A stretch of 64,000 nucleotides of DNA from Dehalococcoidia bacterium (lineage in GTDB: Bacteria; Chloroflexota; Dehalococcoidia; Bin125), in contig JAJDYG010000033.1 of the NCBI GenBank assembly GCA_022822855.1, positions 1-64,000 on the forward strand, in the 5' to 3' direction. Numbering within the stretch: position 1 is the stretch's first letter; each line of letters starts with the position of its first letter. This document shows, one piece after another, positions 9,048 to 47,107 of the stretch. Both the position numbers and the translations under genes were made by a program. Below the pieces are notes generated by a model, which made no database searches, was not told the DNA's origin, and saw only the letters and a program-made list of their open reading frames with translations.

Positions 9048-9108
9048 GAGAATCTCAGTTGATTCGGCCAACACCGCGCGAATTCCGCGCTGTGAACTGC
9101 AGATTCTC
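9048..9108 (+). terminator. Structured inverted repeat / possible terminator
   Basis: Outer arms GAGAATCT (9048-9055) and AGATTCTC (9101-9108), then AGTT/AACT, then a GCGCG-CGCGC inner stem around an AATTC loop, giving a long interrupted hairpin followed by GTTTTGG. It lies 70 nt after the DUF2461 stop. A terminator is most likely; a small structured RNA is possible. Confidence 0.4.
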
Positions 9109-9109
9109 G

Positions 9110-9235
9110 TTTTGGCATGTCAGATTTGGTCAGGTCCGGTCAGGTTTTGTCTGGATTTGGGCAGGTCTCGCCAGGCAATGTCAGCGAATGTCATGCATTG
9201 TCGGATAACGTCGGATGGATCGGTCGAGGCCATGT
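9110..9235. repeat. Decamer-phased repeat array (GTCAGG type)
   Basis: A core like GGTCAGG/TGTCAG recurs at exact 10-bp spacing about eleven times (for example CAGATTTGGT, CAGGTCCGGT, CAGGTTTTGT, then ATGTCAG, ATGTCAT, TTGTCGG, ACGTCGG). It fills most of the 450-bp gene-free interval 8978-9427, where no other gene is seen. Confidence 0.65.
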
Positions 9236-9427: not shown

Positions 9428-9913
9428 ATGACCCAACAGACGCCCGAACGGAATATGCCCCCCGTAGCCCCCGCCCTTGAGGGGGATCCGGTCGCCCCTC
9501 CCGATGACGCCCGCTTCGTGATCAAGCCGACCTCCGATACGCCCGTCAGCGTCGGACGCAACATCCATTCCCGCCGCATGTTCACCACCGCCGAGGGCCG
9601 TTTCGAGAGCTCGTTCCAGTTCGTGCTCTACAACGTCCTGCCGGTCGGTGAGACCAACGTCCGCCACATCCACGAGGACATCGAGAAGGTCTACTACTTC
9701 GTCAAGGGCAACGCCGAGATCGACTGCGGCCCCTGGCGCACCTCGGCCACCGCCGGAGACTTCCTCTTCTTCCCCGCCGACATCGCCCATCAGATCTACA
9801 GCCAGGGTCCCGATGACCTGGAGTTCATCGTCTGCGCCGCACAGACCACCGGCGAAGCGCGGGGGATGTCGGACGGCGGACTGCTGGAGTCCGACGGCGG
9901 GAGCGACGACTGA
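9428..9913 (+). CDS. Cupin domain protein
   Basis: 161 aa. A single cupin barrel: motif 1 includes RHIHEDIEKVYYFVKG (histidines and glutamate for metal binding), and motif 2 is GDFLFFPADIAHQIYS. ATG 9428 is chosen because CCGGAGG lies five bases upstream; longer in-frame readings lack a site. It overlaps the next gene by one base (TGATG), so it is probably a partner or accessory enzyme of the dehydrogenase. The reaction cannot be assigned. Confidence 0.8.
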   Translation: MTQQTPERNMPPVAPALEGDPVAPPDDARFVIKPTSDTPVSVGRNIHSRRMFTTAEGRFESSFQFVLYNVLPVGETNVRHIHEDIEKVYYFVKGNAEIDCGPWRTSATAGDFLFFPADIAHQIYSQGPDDLEFIVCAAQTTGEARGMSDGGLLESDGGSDD

Positions 9914-10965
9914 TGGCCGACCAGGATGCCACCGAGGTCGTTCCGCTCGCACCGCTTCGCGTGTTCGGCAAGGCCGTCTACGAGGCATGCGGAGTACCCT
10001 CCGACGACGCCGAGTTCACGGTTGAGATCCAGCTCACCGCCGATCTGCGCGGAGTCGACACCCACGGCTTCCAGCGTCTCGGCTGGTACGCGGGACATCT
10101 ACAGGCCGGCCGCTACAATCCGACGCCGAGTCTTGAGGTGCTCAAGGAAACTCCCGTCTCGCACGTCGTCGACGGCGACGGCGGGATCGGCCAGTTGATC
10201 GTCGCGCGAACAATGCAGCGCACGATCGCCAAGGCGAAAGAGACCGGTCTCGCGCTCGGCACCCTGCGCAACAGCAACGACTGGGGCATGGGCGCCTTTT
10301 TTCCGATGATGGCCGCCGCCGAGGGCTTCGTCTCGTTCTGCACGACCACGAGCGTGCCGAATATCGCGCCGTTCGGCTCGCGGACCCGCATGAGCGGCAA
10401 CAATCCGATGGCGTTCGCCGCGCCGCGAGCGTCGGGACCGCCGGTAGTGCTCGACATGGCCCTGACGCCGGTCGCGCTGGGCAAAGTCATGCGGGCCAGA
10501 GCGGAGGGCCGGGATATCCCCGAGGATTGGGGTTTCCTCGACATTGAAGGTTTGCCGACAACCGATCCGGAAACGGCAATGTCGGGCATCATCCCCGCGT
10601 TGGGCGCGGTCGCGGCCTACAAGGGCGTGGGTCTGAGCCTGTTCATGAACCTGCTCGCCGGCGCGCTGCCGGGCGGCTATCACTCCAAGAACGTCAGCAT
10701 CGGCAAGCGGGGCCAGTTCCTGCTGGTCATCGACCCCGAAATCTTCGGCGACGCCAACGTTTTCGCCGAGGCCGTCGACGCAATGGTCGAACAGGTCAAG
10801 TCAGCCGATCCGCTCCCCGGAGTGGCCGAGGTCTTCGCCCCCGGAGAGATCGAACAGAGAGCCTACGACGAGCGAATCGCCGCCGGTCACGTCGTCTACC
10901 CGGCGTCGACTCTGCAGGATCTGCGGGAACTGTCGTCGGAGATGGGCATTCCGCTGGAGGTCTAG
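9913..10965 (+). CDS. Ldh2-family (malate/L-lactate/ureidoglycolate) dehydrogenase
   Basis: 350 aa NAD(P)-dependent 2-hydroxyacid dehydrogenase of the Ldh2/MDH2 superfamily, unrelated to Rossmann-fold lactate dehydrogenase. Typical blocks are DLRGVDTHGFQRL near residue 40, GGIGQLIVARTMQRTIAKAK, SNDWGMGAFFPMMAAAEG, and SGNNPMAFAAPR. Length fits the family. Translationally coupled to the cupin gene. Substrate preference is uncertain. Confidence 0.85.
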   Translation: MADQDATEVVPLAPLRVFGKAVYEACGVPSDDAEFTVEIQLTADLRGVDTHGFQRLGWYAGHLQAGRYNPTPSLEVLKETPVSHVVDGDGGIGQLIVARTMQRTIAKAKETGLALGTLRNSNDWGMGAFFPMMAAAEGFVSFCTTTSVPNIAPFGSRTRMSGNNPMAFAAPRASGPPVVLDMALTPVALGKVMRARAEGRDIPEDWGFLDIEGLPTTDPETAMSGIIPALGAVAAYKGVGLSLFMNLLAGALPGGYHSKNVSIGKRGQFLLVIDPEIFGDANVFAEAVDAMVEQVKSADPLPGVAEVFAPGEIEQRAYDERIAAGHVVYPASTLQDLRELSSEMGIPLEV

Positions 10966-17564: not shown

Positions 17565-17630
17565 GGTTTCTCGACTCCTGGCGAACGATTGCGGCCTGAT
17601 CCCGTGTTCAGGTGTTCGGCGGGATTTTTC

Positions 17631-17735
17631 CTTCACGGTCGTTTGAGGCACGATCTCCAGTGTTTTGCGGGGTTGCGCGTGTTCAGGTTGTTCAGGTTCG
17701 TTCAGTATGGTCCAGCCCTGTTCAGCCTGGTCCAG
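17631..17735. repeat. Direct repeat copy A (with decamer array)
   Basis: CGATCTCCAGTGTTTTGCGG at 17651-17670 and the following TTCAGGTTG/TTCAGGTTCG decamers match copy B at 17861-17945 with few substitutions. The decamer phase continues to about 17795: TTCAGTATGG, TCCAGCCCTG, TTCAGCCTGG, TCCAGGTTGG, each exactly 10 bp. Confidence 0.65.
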
Positions 17736-17840
17736 GTTGGTTTGTTCGGTCCTGTTCGATTCTGGTTGGAACTGGACGACCAGAGATGAGGATCGGCCGG
17801 ACAGTTTGGGGGTCGGAGTCGCGTGTTCAGGAGAATTCTG

Positions 17841-17980
17841 TTCACCGTCGAATGATGGCGCGATCTCCAGTGTTTTACGGGGTTTCGCGTGTTCAGGTTG
17901 TTCAGGTTTGTTCGGTCTGGTCCAGCCACGTTCAGTCTTGTTGAGACGGGCCTGGACAGATGCCGAGGCGCAGGAGTGCT
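17841..17980. repeat. Direct repeat copy B (with decamer array)
   Basis: Starts CGATCTCCAGTGTTTTACGG at 17861, 210 bp from copy A. The decamers TTCAGGTTTG, TTCGGTCTGG, TCCAGCCACG and TTCAGTCTTG follow. Copies A and B diverge mainly inside the decamers. Confidence 0.65.
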
Positions 17981-18240
17981 CAGAAAAAACAGAGTGGTGC
18001 AGGGGCGTGACTGGTCAGAGCGGTCGGAGGGGGTCTCCGGGCGAGGCCGGCGTCGAGGTTGGGACAGCGTGGAGGCGGCAACGACTGGGATAGCAGCGCT
18101 CGTTTCGCAGTTAGACAATAGTTCGCACAATAGTGCGGTGACAGGCCTAGGAAGTCAAGCGGCTCTGCTCTGGTTGTTTGTTGCGTAGGCGACGGGGTTC
18201 TCAGGGTGATCGTGGCGTTGCGGTCGGCGGTCTGATTCCA

Positions 18241-18261
18241 GTCCCCGACTCGGTTGGGGAC
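18241..18261. repeat. Interspersed hairpin, degenerate copy
   Basis: GTCCCC (18241-18246) and GGGGAC (18256-18261) with central GACTCGGTT. A decayed member of the family at 96-116 and 642-662. Confidence 0.55.
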
Positions 18262-18361
18262 CCGCCGGGGGCTGCGGCCGGCTCGACGAGGGAGGCGGGG
18301 GGCTGACCCCTGAACAAGTCGGGGGATGGGAAATGGGAGTCGGGGGATGGGACTTCGGAAG

Positions 18362-18459
18362 TGGCGGGAGCGCATGGGAGTCGAACCCACCCGAGACGGC
18401 GCGGACCGCCCCGCATCAGTTTTGAAGACTGTGGAGGACACCGGTCCCCTTCCGCTCCC
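18362..18459 (-). tRNA. selC: tRNA-Sec (anticodon UCA), CCA encoded
   Basis: On the minus strand the molecule begins GGGAGCGG and ends CGCTCCC-G-CCA. The D arm has the diagnostic 6-bp stem (GGGGAC/GTCCTC) with loop CGGT, as in known bacterial tRNA-Sec. The anticodon loop is CTTCAAA, giving UCA. The variable arm is long and GC-rich. The T arm is GTGGG-TTCGACT-CCCAT, and acceptor plus T stem approach the 8/5 arrangement, the eighth acceptor pair being a G-G mismatch. It decodes UGA as selenocysteine with SelA, SelB and SelD, none of which is in this window. It sits 22 nt downstream of the DUF4956 gene on the same strand. Confidence 0.93.
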
Positions 18460-18481
18460 GTGCAAGAGAGGGTAGCCGAGG

Positions 18482-19171
18482 TTAGCCGACGTAGAGGTCG
18501 ACCGAGGCCGGGGCCACCGCTGCCTCGAGCGCCGTGCGGAACTCGCCCCAGCGATCGTCGTAGCGAGAGCGGCGGAAGTTGGCGTGCAGGCTGGCGGTTC
18601 CGGCGTTCTGCGTCGTCGAGGCGATCTTGAAACCGCGCAGGTTGGACTGAAGGAAGCCCAGCAGGGCCGCCTCGTGCTCGGTGTAGTCGGCGGACGGCAT
18701 CGTAATGATCAGGTCGCGGCTGCCGGCCGTCAGGCCTCGCAGCCCGGTCGATCCGAAGACGCGCTGGCCAATCAGCACCAGCGCAACGGCGGCGAAGAGA
18801 ATCCCGATCAGCTCATAGTTGTACGTCGCCGCGCCGATCGACGACGCAATCACGACCAGCAGATAGCCAATCTCGGCCGGATCCTTGATCGGAGTGCGGA
18901 AACGCACGAACGACAACGCGCCCAACAATCCCAGCGAGAGCGGCAGCGACCACTGGATCGCGATGAACAGCAGCGTGATCGCCGGTCCGGCCAGCAGGAA
19001 GACCCGGTGGATGCCCGCGCCGCGCTGCCAGTCGCGATAGAAGAGGAGATAGAGGACGTATGTCGCAATCGACGCCGCCAGCGACACGGCCATCGCCAGC
19101 AGGTACTCCTCAAGCGCGATCTCAGAGGTCGGGCCGAGGATGTCGGGCCACTCGATCAGGACGAAGGGCAT
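18482..19171 (-). CDS. DUF4956 membrane protein
   Basis: 229 aa with about four transmembrane helices in the first 150 residues and a soluble C-terminal domain. The block SLGLLGALSFVRFRTPIKDPAEIGYL is the DUF4956 signature (shown here in part). The family is commonly adjacent to VTC-domain and CotH genes, as here; its function is unknown. The Shine-Dalgarno GGAGGAG is close to ATG 19171. It lies 26 nt after the VTC gene, hence the same operon. Confidence 0.88.
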   Translation of the reverse strand: MPFVLIEWPDILGPTSEIALEEYLLAMAVSLAASIATYVLYLLFYRDWQRGAGIHRVFLLAGPAITLLFIAIQWSLPLSLGLLGALSFVRFRTPIKDPAEIGYLLVVIASSIGAATYNYELIGILFAAVALVLIGQRVFGSTGLRGLTAGSRDLIITMPSADYTEHEAALLGFLQSNLRGFKIASTTQNAGTASLHANFRRSRYDDRWGEFRTALEAAVAPASVDLYVG

Positions 19172-34549: not shown

Positions 34550-35734
34550 ATGCCCACCACTGCTGAGCGCGAGTCCGCTGTCTTCATGATGTCGGCGGGC
34601 CGTTTGCCCGTCACCCTGGTGCGCGGTGAGGGATCCAAGGTCTGGGACGACGAGGGCAACGAGTACCTCGACTTCGTCGCCGGGATCGCCGCCGACAACC
34701 TCGGCCACTGCCACCCTCGCATCGTCGAAGCGATCAAGCAGCAGGCCGAGACCCTGCTGCACGTTTCCAACTACTTCTACACGATTCCCCAGCTCGACCT
34801 GGCCGATGTGATCCTCGAACAGTCGGGCATGACCCGGATTTTTTTCTGCAACAGCGGCGCCGAGGCGACCGAGGGCGCGATCAAGATCGGCCGCAAGTGG
34901 GGCCAGACCCGGCGCGACGGCGCGACCGAGATCATTGTCATGGACCAGGCCTTCCACGGCCGCACCCTGGCCTCCGTCAATGCGTCCGGCAATCCGGCCT
35001 ACCGCGAGCCGTTCGGTCCGCTCGACGGGTTCCGCCACGTCCCCTTCAACGACATTGACGCGGTGCGCGCCGCAGTCGGTCCGCAGACCGCTGCCATCCT
35101 GGTCGAGCCGCTGCAGGGCGAGGGCGGCGTGAACATCGCCGATGACGGATACCTCGTCGCGCTGCGCCAGATCTGCGATGAGCACAACCTGCTGCTCATG
35201 CTGGACGAGGTCCAGACTGGGATCGGCCGGACCGGCAAGCTCTTCGCCTGGCAGCACGAGAACGTGCAGCCGGATGTGATGGCCCTGGCCAAGGGGCTCG
35301 GGAGCGGCGTGCCGATCGGGGCGATCGTCGCCAACGAGCGCGGCGACATCCTGGAACCGGGCGACCACGGCACCACCTTCGGCGGTCAGCCGTTCACTAC
35401 CTCGGTCGCGCTCGAGACGCTTCGAGTGATCATCGAGGAAGACATCCCGGCGCAAGCCGAAGCCCGTGGCGGGCAGCTTGTCTCGGGCCTCCGCGCGCTC
35501 GAGGATCGGCATCCGCTGATCGATCACGTGCGCGGCAAGGGACTGCTGGTCGCGCTCCAACTCAGCGAGGACGTCGGGCCGGCGCTGGTCACGGCGATCC
35601 GCGATCGCGGGTTGATCTGCAACGTGGTCAAGCCCAACGTGCTGCGCCTGGTTCCGCCGCTGACCATTTCCGAGGACGAGATCGATCAGGCGGTTGCGAT
35701 CATCGACGACGCCCTCGCGTCGATCGCCGAATAG
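34550..35734 (+). CDS. argD: Acetylornithine aminotransferase
   Basis: 394 aa PLP class III transaminase. YLDFVAGIAADNLGHCHP, FFCNSGAEATEGAIKIGRKW, FHGRTLASVNASG, EPLQGEGGV, LMLDEVQTGIGRTG, and the Schiff-base lysine in DVMALAKGLGSGVPIGA. Makes N-acetylornithine from the ArgC product. GGAGTGA lies upstream of ATG 34550; a GTG at 34526 is possible. Ornithine- or GABA-type substrates cannot be excluded, but context favours ArgD. Confidence 0.92.
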   Translation: MPTTAERESAVFMMSAGRLPVTLVRGEGSKVWDDEGNEYLDFVAGIAADNLGHCHPRIVEAIKQQAETLLHVSNYFYTIPQLDLADVILEQSGMTRIFFCNSGAEATEGAIKIGRKWGQTRRDGATEIIVMDQAFHGRTLASVNASGNPAYREPFGPLDGFRHVPFNDIDAVRAAVGPQTAAILVEPLQGEGGVNIADDGYLVALRQICDEHNLLLMLDEVQTGIGRTGKLFAWQHENVQPDVMALAKGLGSGVPIGAIVANERGDILEPGDHGTTFGGQPFTTSVALETLRVIIEEDIPAQAEARGGQLVSGLRALEDRHPLIDHVRGKGLLVALQLSEDVGPALVTAIRDRGLICNVVKPNVLRLVPPLTISEDEIDQAVAIIDDALASIAE

Positions 35735-35740
35735 GGCCGT

Positions 35741-35800
35741 TCAGGATCGAACGGATCCGAACAGAACCGAACACATCTGAACAGGGCCGAACACAGTAGG
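35741..35800. repeat. Decamer-phased array between argD and argG
   Basis: Six exact 10-bp steps: TCAGGATCGA, ACGGATCCGA, ACAGAACCGA, ACACATCTGA, ACAGGGCCGA, ACACAGTAGG. Orientation as at 818-990, ending directly at the argG ribosome site. Confidence 0.75.
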
Positions 35801-35810
35801 GAGCACTGGG

Positions 35811-37064
35811 GTGGCAAGACGAACTGAAGACAAGCGGGTCGTACTGGCCTACTCGGGCGGCCTGGACACGTCGGTGGTGACCCGATGGCTCACCGAACGC
35901 GGGTGGGAAGTCATCTGCATGACCGCCGACATGGGCTACCTCGAGGCGGACGAAGAGCTGGAATCGCGCGCCTACGCGGCCGGCGCGATCGGCTTCGAGA
36001 TGCTGGACCTGCGCGACGACTTCGCCCGCGCATTCTGCTTCCCCGCGCTGATGGCCGGCGCCCTCTACGAGGGTCGCTATCCACTGGCGACCGCGCTCGC
36101 CCGGCCGCTGATCGCCAAGGCGCTGGTCGACGTCGCCCGCCGCCACAACGCGACCGCTGTCGCCCACGGCTGCACCGGCAAAGGCAACGACCAGGTGCGG
36201 TTCGATGTCTCGGTCCAGGCGCTCGCGCCCGACCTGCGCATCCTCGCACCGGTCCGCGAATGGGAGTTGACGACACGCGAGTCGGAGATCGTCTACGCCC
36301 AGGCGCACAGCATTCCGATCACGGTGAGCGTGGACAAGCAGTACTCGACCGACGAAAACCTCTGGGGCCGCTCGATTGAGGCCGGCCCGCTCGAGGATCC
36401 GTGGACCGAACCGCCGGACAACGTCTGGGAATGGACCGTCAACCCGGAGGACGCCCCCGACGAGCCGACTTACGTCGAGATCGGCTTCGAGCGGGGTCGG
36501 CCGGTCTCGCTGGACGGCGAGGAGCTTGATCCGGTCACCCTCGTCAGCAGGGTCCACGACATCGCCGGCGCGAACGGCGTCGGACGGATCGACATGGTCG
36601 AAGACCGACTGGTCGGGATCAAGTCGCGTGAGGTCTACGAGGCTCCGGCCGCGACCACGCTGCGCATCGCTCACCAGGCCCTGGAGACCCTGACCCTGTC
36701 CAAGTCCCAGATTCGGCTCAAGCACCGGCTGATGCAGGACTACGCCGATCTGATCTACGACGGTCTCTGGTTCACCGGGACGCATCAAGACCTAGCGGCC
36801 TTCACCGCTTCGATGCAGCGCCACGTGAGCGGCACCTCGCGGGTCAAGCTGTACAAGGGACAGGCGGTCACCGTCGGCGTCGAGAGTCCCAACAGTCTCT
36901 ACCAGTACTCGCTCGCGACCTACGACGAGGGCGACGTCTTCGACCAGTCCTCGGCGGTCGGTTTCATCGACATCTTCGGTCTGCCCGTCCGCGTCCAGGC
37001 GGAAAAGCAATTGCTGCGCCAACCGGGCGGCGTTCTGGACGTATCATCGGGTGGTACGACGTAA
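35811..37064 (+). CDS. argG: Argininosuccinate synthase
   Basis: 417 aa. Condenses citrulline and aspartate with ATP. The N-terminal ATP-binding PP-motif is LAYSGGLDTSVV; CTGKGNDQVRFDVSVQALAP, SVDKQYSTDENLWGRSIE and IGFERGRPVSLDG are conserved. GTG start eight bases after AGGGAG. Length close to the 400-450 of the family. Confidence 0.95.
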   Translation: MARRTEDKRVVLAYSGGLDTSVVTRWLTERGWEVICMTADMGYLEADEELESRAYAAGAIGFEMLDLRDDFARAFCFPALMAGALYEGRYPLATALARPLIAKALVDVARRHNATAVAHGCTGKGNDQVRFDVSVQALAPDLRILAPVREWELTTRESEIVYAQAHSIPITVSVDKQYSTDENLWGRSIEAGPLEDPWTEPPDNVWEWTVNPEDAPDEPTYVEIGFERGRPVSLDGEELDPVTLVSRVHDIAGANGVGRIDMVEDRLVGIKSREVYEAPAATTLRIAHQALETLTLSKSQIRLKHRLMQDYADLIYDGLWFTGTHQDLAAFTASMQRHVSGTSRVKLYKGQAVTVGVESPNSLYQYSLATYDEGDVFDQSSAVGFIDIFGLPVRVQAEKQLLRQPGGVLDVSSGGTT

Positions 37065-40922: not shown

Positions 40923-41384
40923 CTACCAGCGGCGTCCGCGGTCGGCGTAGTTGTCGCGCGAGCCACGGTCGTCGTAGCGCGGTTCACGGTAGCCGCCGCC
41001 ACCGCCGCCGCCTCCGCGACTCTCGCGGTAGCCGCCGTCACGGTAGCCGCCATCGCGATAGCCGCCGCCACCGCCGCCGCCGCGCTCTTCACGGTAGCCG
41101 CCGCCACCGCCACCGCGGTACCCACCGCCGCCGCCACCGCCACCCCCGCGCGGTCGCGCCTCGTTGACGCGCAGCTGGCGACCGTCAAGGTCGTAGCCAT
41201 CGAGCGCGGTGATCGCGTTGCGCGCCTCTTCGTCGTCCATGTCGACGAAGCCGAAGCCGCGTGAGCGACCGCTGTCGCGGTCGACTGGGATCACGCAATC
41301 CTGGACTTCGCCGTGCTCGGCGAACAGGTCGCGCAGTTCTTCGGAGTTCGTGCGGAAGGGCAGGTTTCCAACGTAGATTCGCAT
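40923..41384 (-). CDS. Glycine-rich RRM RNA-binding protein
   Basis: 153 aa. Single RRM: RNP2 is RIYVGNLPF and RNP1 is RGFGFVDM, both intact, residues 1-80. The tail is almost entirely Gly/Tyr/Arg repeats (GGYRDGGYRE type), resembling cyanobacterial Rbp and plant glycine-rich proteins; probably a cold- or stress-related RNA chaperone. GAGGA three bases before ATG. The repeats may be hypervariable. Confidence 0.9.
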   Translation of the reverse strand: MRIYVGNLPFRTNSEELRDLFAEHGEVQDCVIPVDRDSGRSRGFGFVDMDDEEARNAITALDGYDLDGRQLRVNEARPRGGGGGGGGGYRGGGGGGYREERGGGGGGGYRDGGYRDGGYRESRGGGGGGGGYREPRYDDRGSRDNYADRGRRW

Positions 41385-43661: not shown

Positions 43662-44510
43662 ATGTCTATCGCAGTCGTCACCGACTCAGCCTCCGACCTC
43701 GAGCAGGGTCAGATCGAGGGCATCACCGTCGTGCCCCTGCATCTCCACTTTGGCGACGAGGTGTTTGAGGACGGCGTCACGCTGACCAAGCATGACTTCT
43801 GGCAGCGCCTTGACCGAGTCCTCGAGCAGGACGGCGTGCTGCCTACCACCTCCCAGCCGTCTCCCGGAGCATTCCGCGATGTCTACCAACAGTTGATCGA
43901 CGACGGCGCTGACGGCGTGATCTCGATCCACATCAGCGGCAAACTCTCAGGCACCCTCAACTCCGCCCGCCAGGGCGCTTCTCTGCTCGAGAACGCGCCT
44001 CCCTTCGCCTTTGTCGACACCGAGTCCGCTTCGATGTCGGTCGCCTGGGCCGCCCAGGCCGCCCTCGACGCCGCCAGCGGCGGCGCGAGCGTCGATCAGG
44101 CCGCCGACGCCGCGCGAGCGGTCGCCGACCGCTCACGGGCCATCCTGTTCGTCGAGACGCTCGACTACCTCCAGCGAGGTGGACGCATCGGACGCGCCCG
44201 GCACCTCGCGGGACGCCTGCTGCGCATGCGGCCCCTGTTGGAAGTCATTGACGGTGAGATCGTCGATGTCGAGAAGCCGCGCACGCGCAAGAAGGCGCTC
44301 GATCGACTCTACGCGCAGATCATGTCTCCGAGCGCGCCGGAGCGCGTCGCGATCATGCACGGCGGCGCTGAGGCCGACGCCCGCGAACTCGCCGACCGCG
44401 TCTCCGCTGCATGCGACGGCATGACAGTGCCCGTTATCCTCTCCGCCCCCGTGATCGGCGCCCATGTCGGACCGGGCACAGTTGGAGCCTCGGTACTGCG
44501 ACCAGCCTGA
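43662..44510 (+). CDS. DegV family fatty-acid-binding protein (FakB-like)
   Basis: 282 aa. IAVVTDSASDLEQ, VPLHLHFGDEVFEDGVTL, TSQPSPGAF, ISIHISGKLSGTLNSA, VDTESASMSVAWAA, and LDYLQRGGRIGRA are DegV motifs. Presents fatty acid to FakA for phosphorylation. Its TGA overlaps the recG ATG. Confidence 0.9.
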   Translation: MSIAVVTDSASDLEQGQIEGITVVPLHLHFGDEVFEDGVTLTKHDFWQRLDRVLEQDGVLPTTSQPSPGAFRDVYQQLIDDGADGVISIHISGKLSGTLNSARQGASLLENAPPFAFVDTESASMSVAWAAQAALDAASGGASVDQAADAARAVADRSRAILFVETLDYLQRGGRIGRARHLAGRLLRMRPLLEVIDGEIVDVEKPRTRKKALDRLYAQIMSPSAPERVAIMHGGAEADARELADRVSAACDGMTVPVILSAPVIGAHVGPGTVGASVLRPA

Positions 44511-47107
44511 TGACGACCGAGCGCCGGCCCACGCAAACGCTCCAGTCCATGCTGGCCCTGGAAGAGAAGCTCGGCTACGAGGACCGCGCCGTCGCCGGCG
44601 GCCTCGACACATACCTGCGCAACGTGCTCAAGGACGGCGATCAGGCCCACTTCTTCAAGCGAATCGTCGCCGACCTGCCCCAGCGCGGATACGCCTCGCT
44701 CACCCCGCAGCAGCGGGAGCGCTGGGCCTCGAGCGTTCGCGCCAGGTTGCGCCCCGGCGCGTCACCCAGACAGCCGAACCAGCCGACCAGGTCCAAACAG
44801 GCCCGACCAGGCTCGAGTGACGAAACCTGGACGCACGAGGACGAACCTCCCCCAGCACCCGCGAAATCGTCTCGAGATCCCGGCGAATCATCCCGAAGTC
44901 TGGACAGATCTGGACAGATCCGAACACCAAAACGCACGAAGTCCAGTCGTAGACGCCCCGCCGCCACATTCGACGACGAAAACCCCCTCGCCCGAGACGT
45001 CGCCGTCCTCGGCCGCATCCCACCGATCTCTCGCAAGGCCCTGACCTCCCTTGGAATCAAGACGATCTACGACCTGCTCTGGCATCTGCCCAGACGTTAC
45101 GAGGACTGGCGCAACGTCCGCACCATCGCCGAAGCCCTCGAAGGCGTCGAACTCACCATCGTCGCCGAGATCGCCAGCATCGGCGTCAAGCACCTGCGCG
45201 GCGGACGCAAAGCAACCGAAGCCATCGTCCGCGACGGCACCGGCAGCCTGCGCGTCTGGTGGTGGTCCCAGCCCTATCTCGCTCGTACCTTGCAGCCCGG
45301 AATGCGTGTCGGACTCTCGGGCAAGATCGAGATTCGCGGGCGCCAACTCCGGATGGCTTCGCCCGAGTGGGAACGCCTCGACGATCCCGACGACGACACG
45401 GTGCACGTGGGCAGGCTCTCGCCGGTCTATCCGCGGACGAGGGGGTTGCCGAACCGAACGATCCGCCGGCTAGCCCACGCAGCCGTACGCGACTATCTGC
45501 CGCTCCTCGCCGAGTCGCTCCCTCCGCGGATCGTCTCGGAGCAGGGCTTCCCCTCCGAGGCCGAGGCACTGCGGATCATCCACTTTCCCGACCGGCTCGA
45601 GGATGTCGATCTCGCAAAACAGCGGATCGCCTTCCAGGAGCTGCTCTCGATCCAGCTCGCCGTCCTCGCGCGCAAGCGCGAGGCGAGGCTCAGGGCCGAT
45701 GCCCCGCCGATCCCGATGCCCGGCGACTTCCTCGATACCTTCATCGGCGCGCTGCCCTTCGAGTTGACGACGGCCCAGCAGCGAGTCCTGACCGAGATCC
45801 GCAATGACATGTTCCGCCGCGAGCCCATGGCCCGTCTGCTCCAGGGCGATGTTGGCTCCGGCAAGACGGTCGTCGCAGCAGCGGCAATGTTGGCCGCCGT
45901 GCGAGCGAAACACCAGACCGTCCTGATGGCGCCGACCGAGGTGTTGGCCTCCCAGCACTACGAGACCTTTCAGCGCCTCTTCGCCGGCAAGGAGCATTCA
46001 GGCGGCGACCAGCTCTGGTACGACTTCAGTCTCGCCCCCGCCTTGGGCCGTCCGGTCCGGATGGCCCTCTTGACCGGCAGCGTGCGGGCCGCGCGCAAGC
46101 GGCAGATTCATCAGGAGATGGCAAGCGGAACGCTCGACCTCGTGGTCGGCACCCACGCCCTGATCCAGGAGAGCGCCAACTTCAACGACCTCGGCCTCGC
46201 GGTCGTCGACGAGCAGCACCGCTTCGGCGTACTCCAGCGCGACGCGCTGCGCAGCAAGGGCCGCAGCCCGCACCTGCTCGTCATGACTGCGACCCCGATC
46301 CCGCGCACCCTGGCGCTCACCGTTTATGGCGAGCTCGATTCCTCCGTCATCGACGAGCTGCCCCCGGGCAGGCAGCGCGTCCGGACCCAGGTCGTCGAGC
46401 CGTCCCAACGAGAGCTGGTCTACCAACGAATCCGCGAAGAGGCGGCTCAAGGTCGTCAGACGTTCGTCATTTGTCCGCTGGTCGAGGAGTCGGACAAGCT
46501 CGAAGCTGAAGCGGCGACCGAGCAATTTGAGTTCCTGCGCACCGGGCCGCTGCGCGATCTGGCGCCAAGAATCCGGCTCCTTCACGGGCGGATGTCATCC
46601 GACGAGAAACGGGCGATGATGGCGGATCTCACCAATGGCGAGGCGGACGTCCTCGTGTCGACTATCGTCGTCGAGGTCGGCGTCGACCTCCCCAAGGCAA
46701 CGGTCATGGTGGTCGAAGGCGCCGAACGATTCGGGCTCGCCCAACTGCACCAGCTCCGCGGCCGCGTCGGCCGGAGCAATCTGCCCTCGGTCTGTTATCT
46801 GGTTTCTGATACGGACCTCGAGCAGAGCCAGCGCCGTCTCGACCTCATGGTTCAAACCGGAAACGGGTTCGAACTCGCCGAAGCCGACCTCGAAATGCGC
46901 GGCCCGGGAGAGTACTTCGGCACGAGGCAGTCCGGCCTTCCTGAATTGCGCGTCGCCAAACTGACCGATCATCACACCCTCAGCCTGGCCCGAAACTGGG
47001 CCAACCGAATCCTTGATGACGATCCGCATCTGCGAGCGCCGGAGCATCGTCTGCTACGGGCGCGAGCCCAGAGCCTGAACGTCTCCGGCGCGACGGCGGT
47101 CCACTAG
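44510..47107 (+). CDS. recG: ATP-dependent DNA helicase RecG with repeat-expanded linker
   Basis: 865 aa. Residues 1-80: helical N-terminal domain (LGYEDRAVAGGLDTYLRN). Residues about 84-160: a disordered Pro/Ser/Arg/Gln linker whose DNA carries decamer repeats. Then OB/wedge domain (ALEGVELTIVAEIASIG) and the helicase core: GDVGSGKTVVAAAA, DEQHRFGVLQR, TATPIPRTLAL, and HQLRGRVGRSNLPSVCYL. Unwinds stalled replication forks. The N-terminal domain and a linker are known in Chloroflexi-type RecG; the linker here is longer than standard. Confidence 0.93.
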   Translation: MTTERRPTQTLQSMLALEEKLGYEDRAVAGGLDTYLRNVLKDGDQAHFFKRIVADLPQRGYASLTPQQRERWASSVRARLRPGASPRQPNQPTRSKQARPGSSDETWTHEDEPPPAPAKSSRDPGESSRSLDRSGQIRTPKRTKSSRRRPAATFDDENPLARDVAVLGRIPPISRKALTSLGIKTIYDLLWHLPRRYEDWRNVRTIAEALEGVELTIVAEIASIGVKHLRGGRKATEAIVRDGTGSLRVWWWSQPYLARTLQPGMRVGLSGKIEIRGRQLRMASPEWERLDDPDDDTVHVGRLSPVYPRTRGLPNRTIRRLAHAAVRDYLPLLAESLPPRIVSEQGFPSEAEALRIIHFPDRLEDVDLAKQRIAFQELLSIQLAVLARKREARLRADAPPIPMPGDFLDTFIGALPFELTTAQQRVLTEIRNDMFRREPMARLLQGDVGSGKTVVAAAAMLAAVRAKHQTVLMAPTEVLASQHYETFQRLFAGKEHSGGDQLWYDFSLAPALGRPVRMALLTGSVRAARKRQIHQEMASGTLDLVVGTHALIQESANFNDLGLAVVDEQHRFGVLQRDALRSKGRSPHLLVMTATPIPRTLALTVYGELDSSVIDELPPGRQRVRTQVVEPSQRELVYQRIREEAAQGRQTFVICPLVEESDKLEAEAATEQFEFLRTGPLRDLAPRIRLLHGRMSSDEKRAMMADLTNGEADVLVSTIVVEVGVDLPKATVMVVEGAERFGLAQLHQLRGRVGRSNLPSVCYLVSDTDLEQSQRRLDLMVQTGNGFELAEADLEMRGPGEYFGTRQSGLPELRVAKLTDHHTLSLARNWANRILDDDPHLRAPEHRLLRARAQSLNVSGATAVH
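44766..44946. repeat. Decamer-phased array inside recG
   Basis: AGCCGACCAG, GTCCAAACAG, GCCCGACCAG, GCTCGAGTGA, CGAAACCTGG run in exact 10-bp steps. A second block is TGGACAGATC, TGGACAGATC, CGAACACCAA, AACGCACGAA. Frame is retained through the linker. Confidence 0.65.

Follow-up and report, generated by a model that had tools for sequence, protein, structure and literature searches.

Ten-base-pair repeat arrays in Dehalococcoidia as candidate binding sites for a helix-turn-helix family that carries them in its own genes

Arrays of degenerate decamers recur throughout the genome of a Dehalococcoidia bacterium (the source genome, G000) and are widespread in its genus, an uncultured one within the Chloroflexota. 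In two genera, they are also found within the genes that encode a multicopy family of proteins with a helix-turn-helix (HTH) domain. The 10-bp period goes beyond what the encoded proteins need, the arrays and the HTH genes co-occur across genomes, and the HTH genes share a promoter motif. Because the same arrays are found inside the genes of this DNA-binding family, they look like its binding sites. We propose that the arrays may be high-avidity sites for autoregulated HTH proteins, with one such site in the protein's own gene and solo copies dispersed, a reading drawn from sequence comparison to which we assign a probability of about one half.

Arrays with a 10-bp period in the window

In the window, i.e. 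the whole 64-kb stretch of the source genome that was analyzed, 105 stretches of 60 bp contain at least 34 matches at lag 10 and 21 do so at lag 20 (2 x 10), as compared to none at lags 5, 7, 8, 11, 13, 14, 16, 17, 19, 22 and 23; lags divisible by 3 were set aside, as they reflect coding. The lag-10 peaks are located at 813-930, 9103-9231, 17652-17789, 17862-17968, 35710-35827 and 44871-44946, and they bear out the 10-bp-phased repeats that an earlier note on this DNA had claimed at these six places. An additional weak peak (31/60) is present at 18420-18493. The note gave the intervals as exactly 10 bp; in the B-type arrays that start at 17680 and 17890 the opening step measures 9 bp and the later ones 10 bp, and within the sixth place, given as 44766-44946, the segment 44766-44820 is weak. 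Its two orientations are not two kinds of repeat, as one motif family is read on opposite strands. It correctly set the arrays apart from microsatellites and from CRISPRs. In a CRISPR, near-identical repeats alternate with unique spacers of a constant length; the units here are contiguous, degenerate and 10 bp long.

Three of the six arrays belong to the composite elements described below. The first of these, a solo element of type A/B on the minus strand (816-1021; nhmmer 111 bits), contains a T-run and short TTTCAGG repeats, a hairpin at 911-935 and a decamer array at 818-908 that gives a lag-10 peak, and it has an orthologue in the sister species G006. The other two are tandem type B solo elements on the plus strand. 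Element 1 (17569-17769; 116 bits) is positioned 3' of an Iso_dh-family gene, with its hairpin at 17652-17676 and its array at 17680-17769, and element 2 (17818-17968; 99.7 bits) has its hairpin at 17862-17886 and its array at 17890-17957. A tRNA-Sec gene (18366-18459, minus strand) adjoins this pair, and the genes on its other side differ in several relatives. A hairpin head is missing from the other three arrays, at 9.1, 35.7 and 44.8 kb. Specifically, an array of the GTCAG type (9104-9231, plus strand; lag-10 37/60), which lacks the canonical hairpin head, separates a DUF2461 gene from a cupin gene; a solo CCGAACA array (35741-35795, minus strand, the plus strand reading CCGAAC; lag-10 38/60) fills the argD-argG spacer; and the third (44766-44946, minus strand) is located in the coding linker of RecG, which was called at 44510-47107 on the plus strand and whose sense strand carries CTGGACA/CCGAACA.

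Most arrays are the tail of a composite element

The genome was sampled by whole-genome pattern counts and by 448 kb of stretches that were picked around array hits, so that array densities in the latter are biased. The pattern TTCAGN5TTCAG matches the whole genome 74 times, as compared to 2 for its reversed control, and CGAWCAN4CGAWCA matches it 59 times, as compared to 1; the genome-wide excess of the 10-bp period, on which the earlier note depended, is upheld by these counts. The arrays are also not confined to one strain, as they recur across the genus and a second genus carries them within genes. Alignment of their neighborhoods placed most arrays at the tail of a larger unit formed by a hairpin (GATCTCCAGT-GTTTT-ACTGGAGATC), a T-run and the decamers. 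Read in the TTCAGG orientation, the element contains short TTTCAGG or TGTTCAGG repeats, then AAACTTTTTTTCTG, ~25 bp, a palindrome (CAC-GATCTCCAGT-GTTTT-ACTGGAGATC-GTG), ~10 bp and the decamers, which are TTTCAGGTTT in type A and GTTCAGGTTC or GTTCGG in type B, the tails of type C being less regular. The left and right repeats of an element agree in type, and GAACA is the core of most decamers, although this core was partly set by the search pattern. The decamers seen earlier are real, and most are one piece of a longer composite element that doubles as the coding linker of a gene family, which the earlier note could not have seen.

A covariance model detected at least 75 copies of the element in the source genome. 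Counts are 6-49 in ten further genomes of the genus and 0-1 in its last four; the 31 genomes examined from outside it gave none. Copies scoring at least 50 bits comprise 52 solo and 5 embedded ones, i.e. the element is present both in spacers and, in frame, in coding linkers. The solo elements have no fixed position relative to genes, being located 5' of some and 3' of others; one of them is adjoined on the opposite strand by a c-di-AMP riboswitch (L095 11215-11382). They do not appear to be plain decayed HTH genes, as among 61 sampled elements 6 are in intact HTH genes, 1 lies beside an HTH remnant and the others show no clear trace of an HTH domain or of the SEC-C motif that some HTH genes carry; one weak match near the window elements in this trace search lies in a DUF4956 gene. 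Hidden coding was likewise rejected, as the sense frame is open in 28 of the 52 solo elements, which is about the estimate for random DNA of like length and GC content.

The arrays reside in genes of an HTH family in two genera

The HTH family is known from sequence alone. Its members contain an N-terminal HTH domain, a helical stretch and a linker, to which the A/B type adds a SEC-C zinc motif such as LPRNTGRNKPCPCGSGRKRKHCHPQ; the HTH domain produces only sub-threshold HTH_11, HTH_23 and DeoR-like matches and none to MerR. Translation of the decamers and hairpin along the CCTGAA strand yields linkers such as DWTKLNKPEHPEQPKPSKTLEI, and the three linker types correspond to the three types of solo element. 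One insertion contained an ORF (L093 10185-10892) whose coding sequence includes the element. The type-C genes, which are without SEC-C, have multiplied as ~1.1-kb units, and in the source genus they are multicopy with only weakly phased linkers; an A-run accompanies the array in HTH genes of this genus. Contigs C4, C13, C15, C29, C33 and C38 of the source genome break off within a type-C HTH gene or where one starts, suggesting that the copies are nearly identical and multiplied recently.

Among the 245 genomes of the class that were searched, the family was found only in the source genus and in G017, a member of a different genus in the same taxonomic family. Nine HTH genes are present in the G017 sample and each has a decamer array in its own linker, reading GATCGAACAC AATCGAACAC AGTCGAACAG in six genes and built on CGATCA cores in three; all lag-10 arrays found in the ~270 kb sampled sit in HTH genes. 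These arrays come without the hairpin element and without an A/T-rich stretch after them, and the linker peptide has a period of 10 residues (DRTQSNTIEQ). Among the eight copies whose downstream frame is intact, six contain 9, 12 or 15 decamers, which preserves that frame; the other two were counted as 7 and 8 decamers, perhaps because imperfect units broke the count, and one copy (L254) is truncated. The pattern CGAWCAN4CGAWCA matches G017 142 times, as compared to 1-3 times in four other genomes of the taxonomic family (three genera); the HTH search listed three of these four, all but G015, and found no HTH gene in them (two at E 1e-8 or better, and G016). In G017 HTH genes (e.g. L246 9150-9195), a sigma-70-like promoter (TTGACA ... 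TAATAC) is located so near the ATG that the transcript would lack a leader, and GAACATG overlaps the start.

The period is a DNA-level feature

To gauge how much of the period the protein requires, the linkers were resampled synonymously. In eight G017 genes, 37-44 of 50 positions match at lag 10, as compared to means of 25-29 after resampling, and the observed values are reached in 0-1 of 1000 resamplings. The RecG linkers of G002, G005, G006 and G010 behave similarly (0/1000), the signal of the source genome's RecG linker is reached in 27/1000, and array-free RecG linkers exhibit no lag-10 signal beyond synonymous resampling. A stricter control, in which the codons actually present are permuted, gives weaker support in some cases, with 0-286/1000 across the array-bearing G017 genes together with L102, L105 and L174, and 0-256/1000 within G017; the SEC-C genes L178 and L206 of the source genus are not significant. 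As synonymous resampling destroys the 10-bp signal, the period is a feature of the DNA, either by origin or by selection.

Elements co-occur with HTH genes that share a promoter motif

Across 15 genomes, with the source genome capped at 75 elements and HTH genes counted at E at most 1e-20, the number of elements follows the number of HTH genes (rho 0.88). The five genomes that lack HTH genes contain 0-6 elements and form three groups in an ArgG tree with poorly supported inner branches; the upper value is that of G007, where no HTH gene was detected. Among 26 HTH genes, 24 have GAACA or TGTTC no more than ~60 bp from the start, as compared to 38/287 other genes with noncoding upstream DNA, and the inverted pair GTTC-N5/6-GAAC is present in 9/10 genes of the SEC-C-linker group, as compared to 4/287 other genes for GTTC-N4-7-GAAC; these counts are not independent, as the HTH genes are homologous. 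Visual inspection suggested no relationship between the upstream regions of one genus and those of the other. The promoters of the G017 paralogues with CGATCA arrays retain a GAACA site. Array and promoter thus do not change in step, which argues against a simple one-motif code.

The same loci differ between species

The argD-argG spacer carries an array in the source genome, G010 and G012, those of the latter two being longer (150-160 bp), and measures 38-53 bp without an array in nine relatives. Two B elements occupy the tRNA-Sec spacer in the source genome and a single one does so in its sister G006; G011 and G014 have C elements there. The 9.1-kb array is present only in the source genome among the relatives compared; the DUF2461-cupin spacer that holds it is 450 bp long, as compared to 61-184 bp without an array in ten relatives. 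The RecG linker array is common to several species and is poorest in the source genome (28/50, versus 32-37/50 in four relatives). Several elements lie within stretches of ~500-1300 bp that are absent from G006. In five pairs, orthologous solo elements are 68-96% identical, as compared to 43-67% for the spacer beyond the array, which suggests constraint, although turnover of the flank could also explain the difference. In one pair, the hairpin loop is inverted between sister species, reading TGTTTTG in one (L095 11017-11041) and TAAAACA in the other (L183, element 9881-10075), as after recombination or template switching at a palindrome. An HTH-SEC-C gene segment is also inverted relative to its flanks between G000 and G006 (L102 7669-8411 versus L174 9381-10103).

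A model in which HTH proteins recognize the arrays

On our preferred reading, the decamers would be head-to-tail half-sites, with the core C[T/C]GAACA or near variants, for the multicopy HTH family. Each HTH protein may repress its own promoter at a GAACA-containing operator, which in the SEC-C-linker type would be the inverted pair GTTC-N5/6-GAAC. The DNA that encodes the linker would repeat this core in an array, once per helical turn, and HTH subunits could bind there cooperatively along one face of the helix. In the source genus, copies of the linker DNA (array, hairpin and A/T run) may have dispersed as solo elements in spacers, and these, as well as the RecG linker array, could recruit the same HTH proteins and might thereby influence their neighbors. 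The homology of solo elements to gene linkers could in large part be due to shared descent alone.

The earlier note had suggested that one protein face reads the repeats, or that they form a curved structure. The former is the best surviving reading, in view of the HTH copy numbers and the promoter motif. The latter was abandoned as a common feature, as a wedge model predicts strong bends for some arrays and none for others, with bends exceeding those of shuffled sequences for only some arrays and not for those of G017. Binding to such direct repeats exists, as BldC binds 9-bp direct repeats head to tail (PMC5859096) and RdfS covers 10 bp per molecule (PMC11963761).

A more far-reaching version of the model, which we offer tentatively and think more doubtful than the binding itself, is that the HTH proteins are a self-addressed regulator family, whose linker would hold a phased array of its own operator that in one genus has been copied out as dozens of free operators to form a chromosome-wide network. 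If true, the coding DNA would be used doubly, with all three reading frames visited at the 10-bp period, and would seed solo copies across the genome, showing a way for operator networks to spread. Examples of binding sites within the binder's own gene come mainly from phage origins and packaging sites. The system offers a directly testable pair, a single small protein with a single array.

Alternative explanations

The element could instead be a selfish palindromic repeat, similar to the Rickettsia palindromic elements, that multiplies into spacers and in-frame linkers (HTH genes, RecG) and has no host binding function. We consider this unlikely, yet it deserves to be taken seriously, as the same element has intergenic and in-frame coding copies, its presence at a given spacer differs by species, copies occur in tandem and the hairpin sequence is conserved. 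The distribution of the coding copies fits it poorly: among 433 called genes, convincing coding arrays are found only in one HTH gene and RecG, with no sign of insertion into many unrelated genes, and in G017 the arrays are found only in HTH genes and without the hairpin element. Element numbers parallel those of the HTH genes, clear insertion ends were not seen, and no mobilizing enzyme was detected. A REP/REPIN-RAYT system was rejected, as PF01797 (Y1, IS200-like transposase) was found once, only in G009, and is absent from the array-rich genomes.

An initiator resembling phage lambda O, with its origin inside the gene, would bind iterons there, open the A/T-rich run and replicate a small element. 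The layout is the same, i.e. an N-terminal DNA-binding domain, a site array in the linker and a C-terminal domain; in lambda O the array sits in the linker after the DNA-binding domain. The A-run beside the array in the source genus and the ~1.1-kb units of the type-C genes also fit. Nevertheless, this explanation is improbable, as the HTH family has no match in phages, plasmids or viral contigs, which also led us to discard a phage or plasmid origin, the genes beside the HTH genes inspected are chromosomal and metabolic with no replication genes among them, and the G017 arrays lack the A/T-rich stretch.

We see equally little prospect for decamer minisatellites that arose by replication slippage in disordered linkers and spacers, with an incidental period. 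Slippage would account for the tandem nature of the arrays, their length differences between species and their location in disordered linkers; it does not account for a core that is kept while other positions vary (though the search pattern partly chose this core), for the same core at unrelated loci, for coding arrays mostly in multiples of three decamers, or for array-poor relatives that lack HTH genes.

Finally, an RNA element or terminator acting through the hairpin is very improbable: the palindrome is strong and codirectional flanking genes favor the CCTGAA strand 13 to 2 (home-made gene caller), but the stem does not covary (75.6% of cells paired, versus 76.9% in shuffles), no Rfam match falls at the elements, their side relative to genes varies and no T-run directly follows the hairpin.

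Comparison with known systems

No described equivalent of the array/HTH system was found in the open-licence literature, and BldC, RdfS, lambda O and the Rickettsia palindromic elements each resemble it only in part. The targets of BldC-type regulators (Streptomyces) and of RdfS are, like the arrays here, direct repeats about one helical turn apart whose number varies between targets. BldC and RdfS are small HTH proteins that multimerize head to tail, as we infer for the present family. However, the BldC period is 9 bp, as compared to 10 bp here in both solo and gene arrays; in the cited papers their sites are located in promoters or att sites rather than in the regulator's own coding linker; and both are winged-helix proteins, whereas the HTH domain here only weakly matches HTH_11/HTH_23.

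The location of the arrays is reminiscent of ori-lambda, as the gene of lambda O contains the site array of its binder (PMC5043065). The arrays here lie inside all nine G017 HTH genes sampled and inside HTH-SEC-C genes of the source genus, where the encoded protein may bind them. Lambda O differs in its 19-bp inverted-repeat iterons that are bound by dimers, its single copy and its adjoining phage replication genes, none of which is seen here. Plasmid iteron arrays are also helically phased direct repeats, bound by monomeric initiators; unlike them, the arrays here are chromosomal and dispersed, with no replicon and no initiator family detected. Rickettsia palindromic elements live both between and within genes (PMC10969869) and, together with MITE-like repeats, are like the element here short, hairpin-bearing and found in spacers as well as in frame in coding genes. 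The present element differs from them in its 10-bp array, in a copy number that follows the HTH genes and in coding copies that are almost confined to one HTH family and RecG.

Other repeats

GCC-rich tandem repeats with periods of 15-66 bp, unrelated to the decamers, lie in a coding region of the window at 40983-41151. Further palindromic repeats (CAGTCCCCGAC...GGGGACC; GATGCCCCGTGC...GACACGGGGCCC) are dispersed through the genus and occupy its spacers, e.g. at 18235-18262 of the window and 5' of HTH genes (L093 9640-10050).
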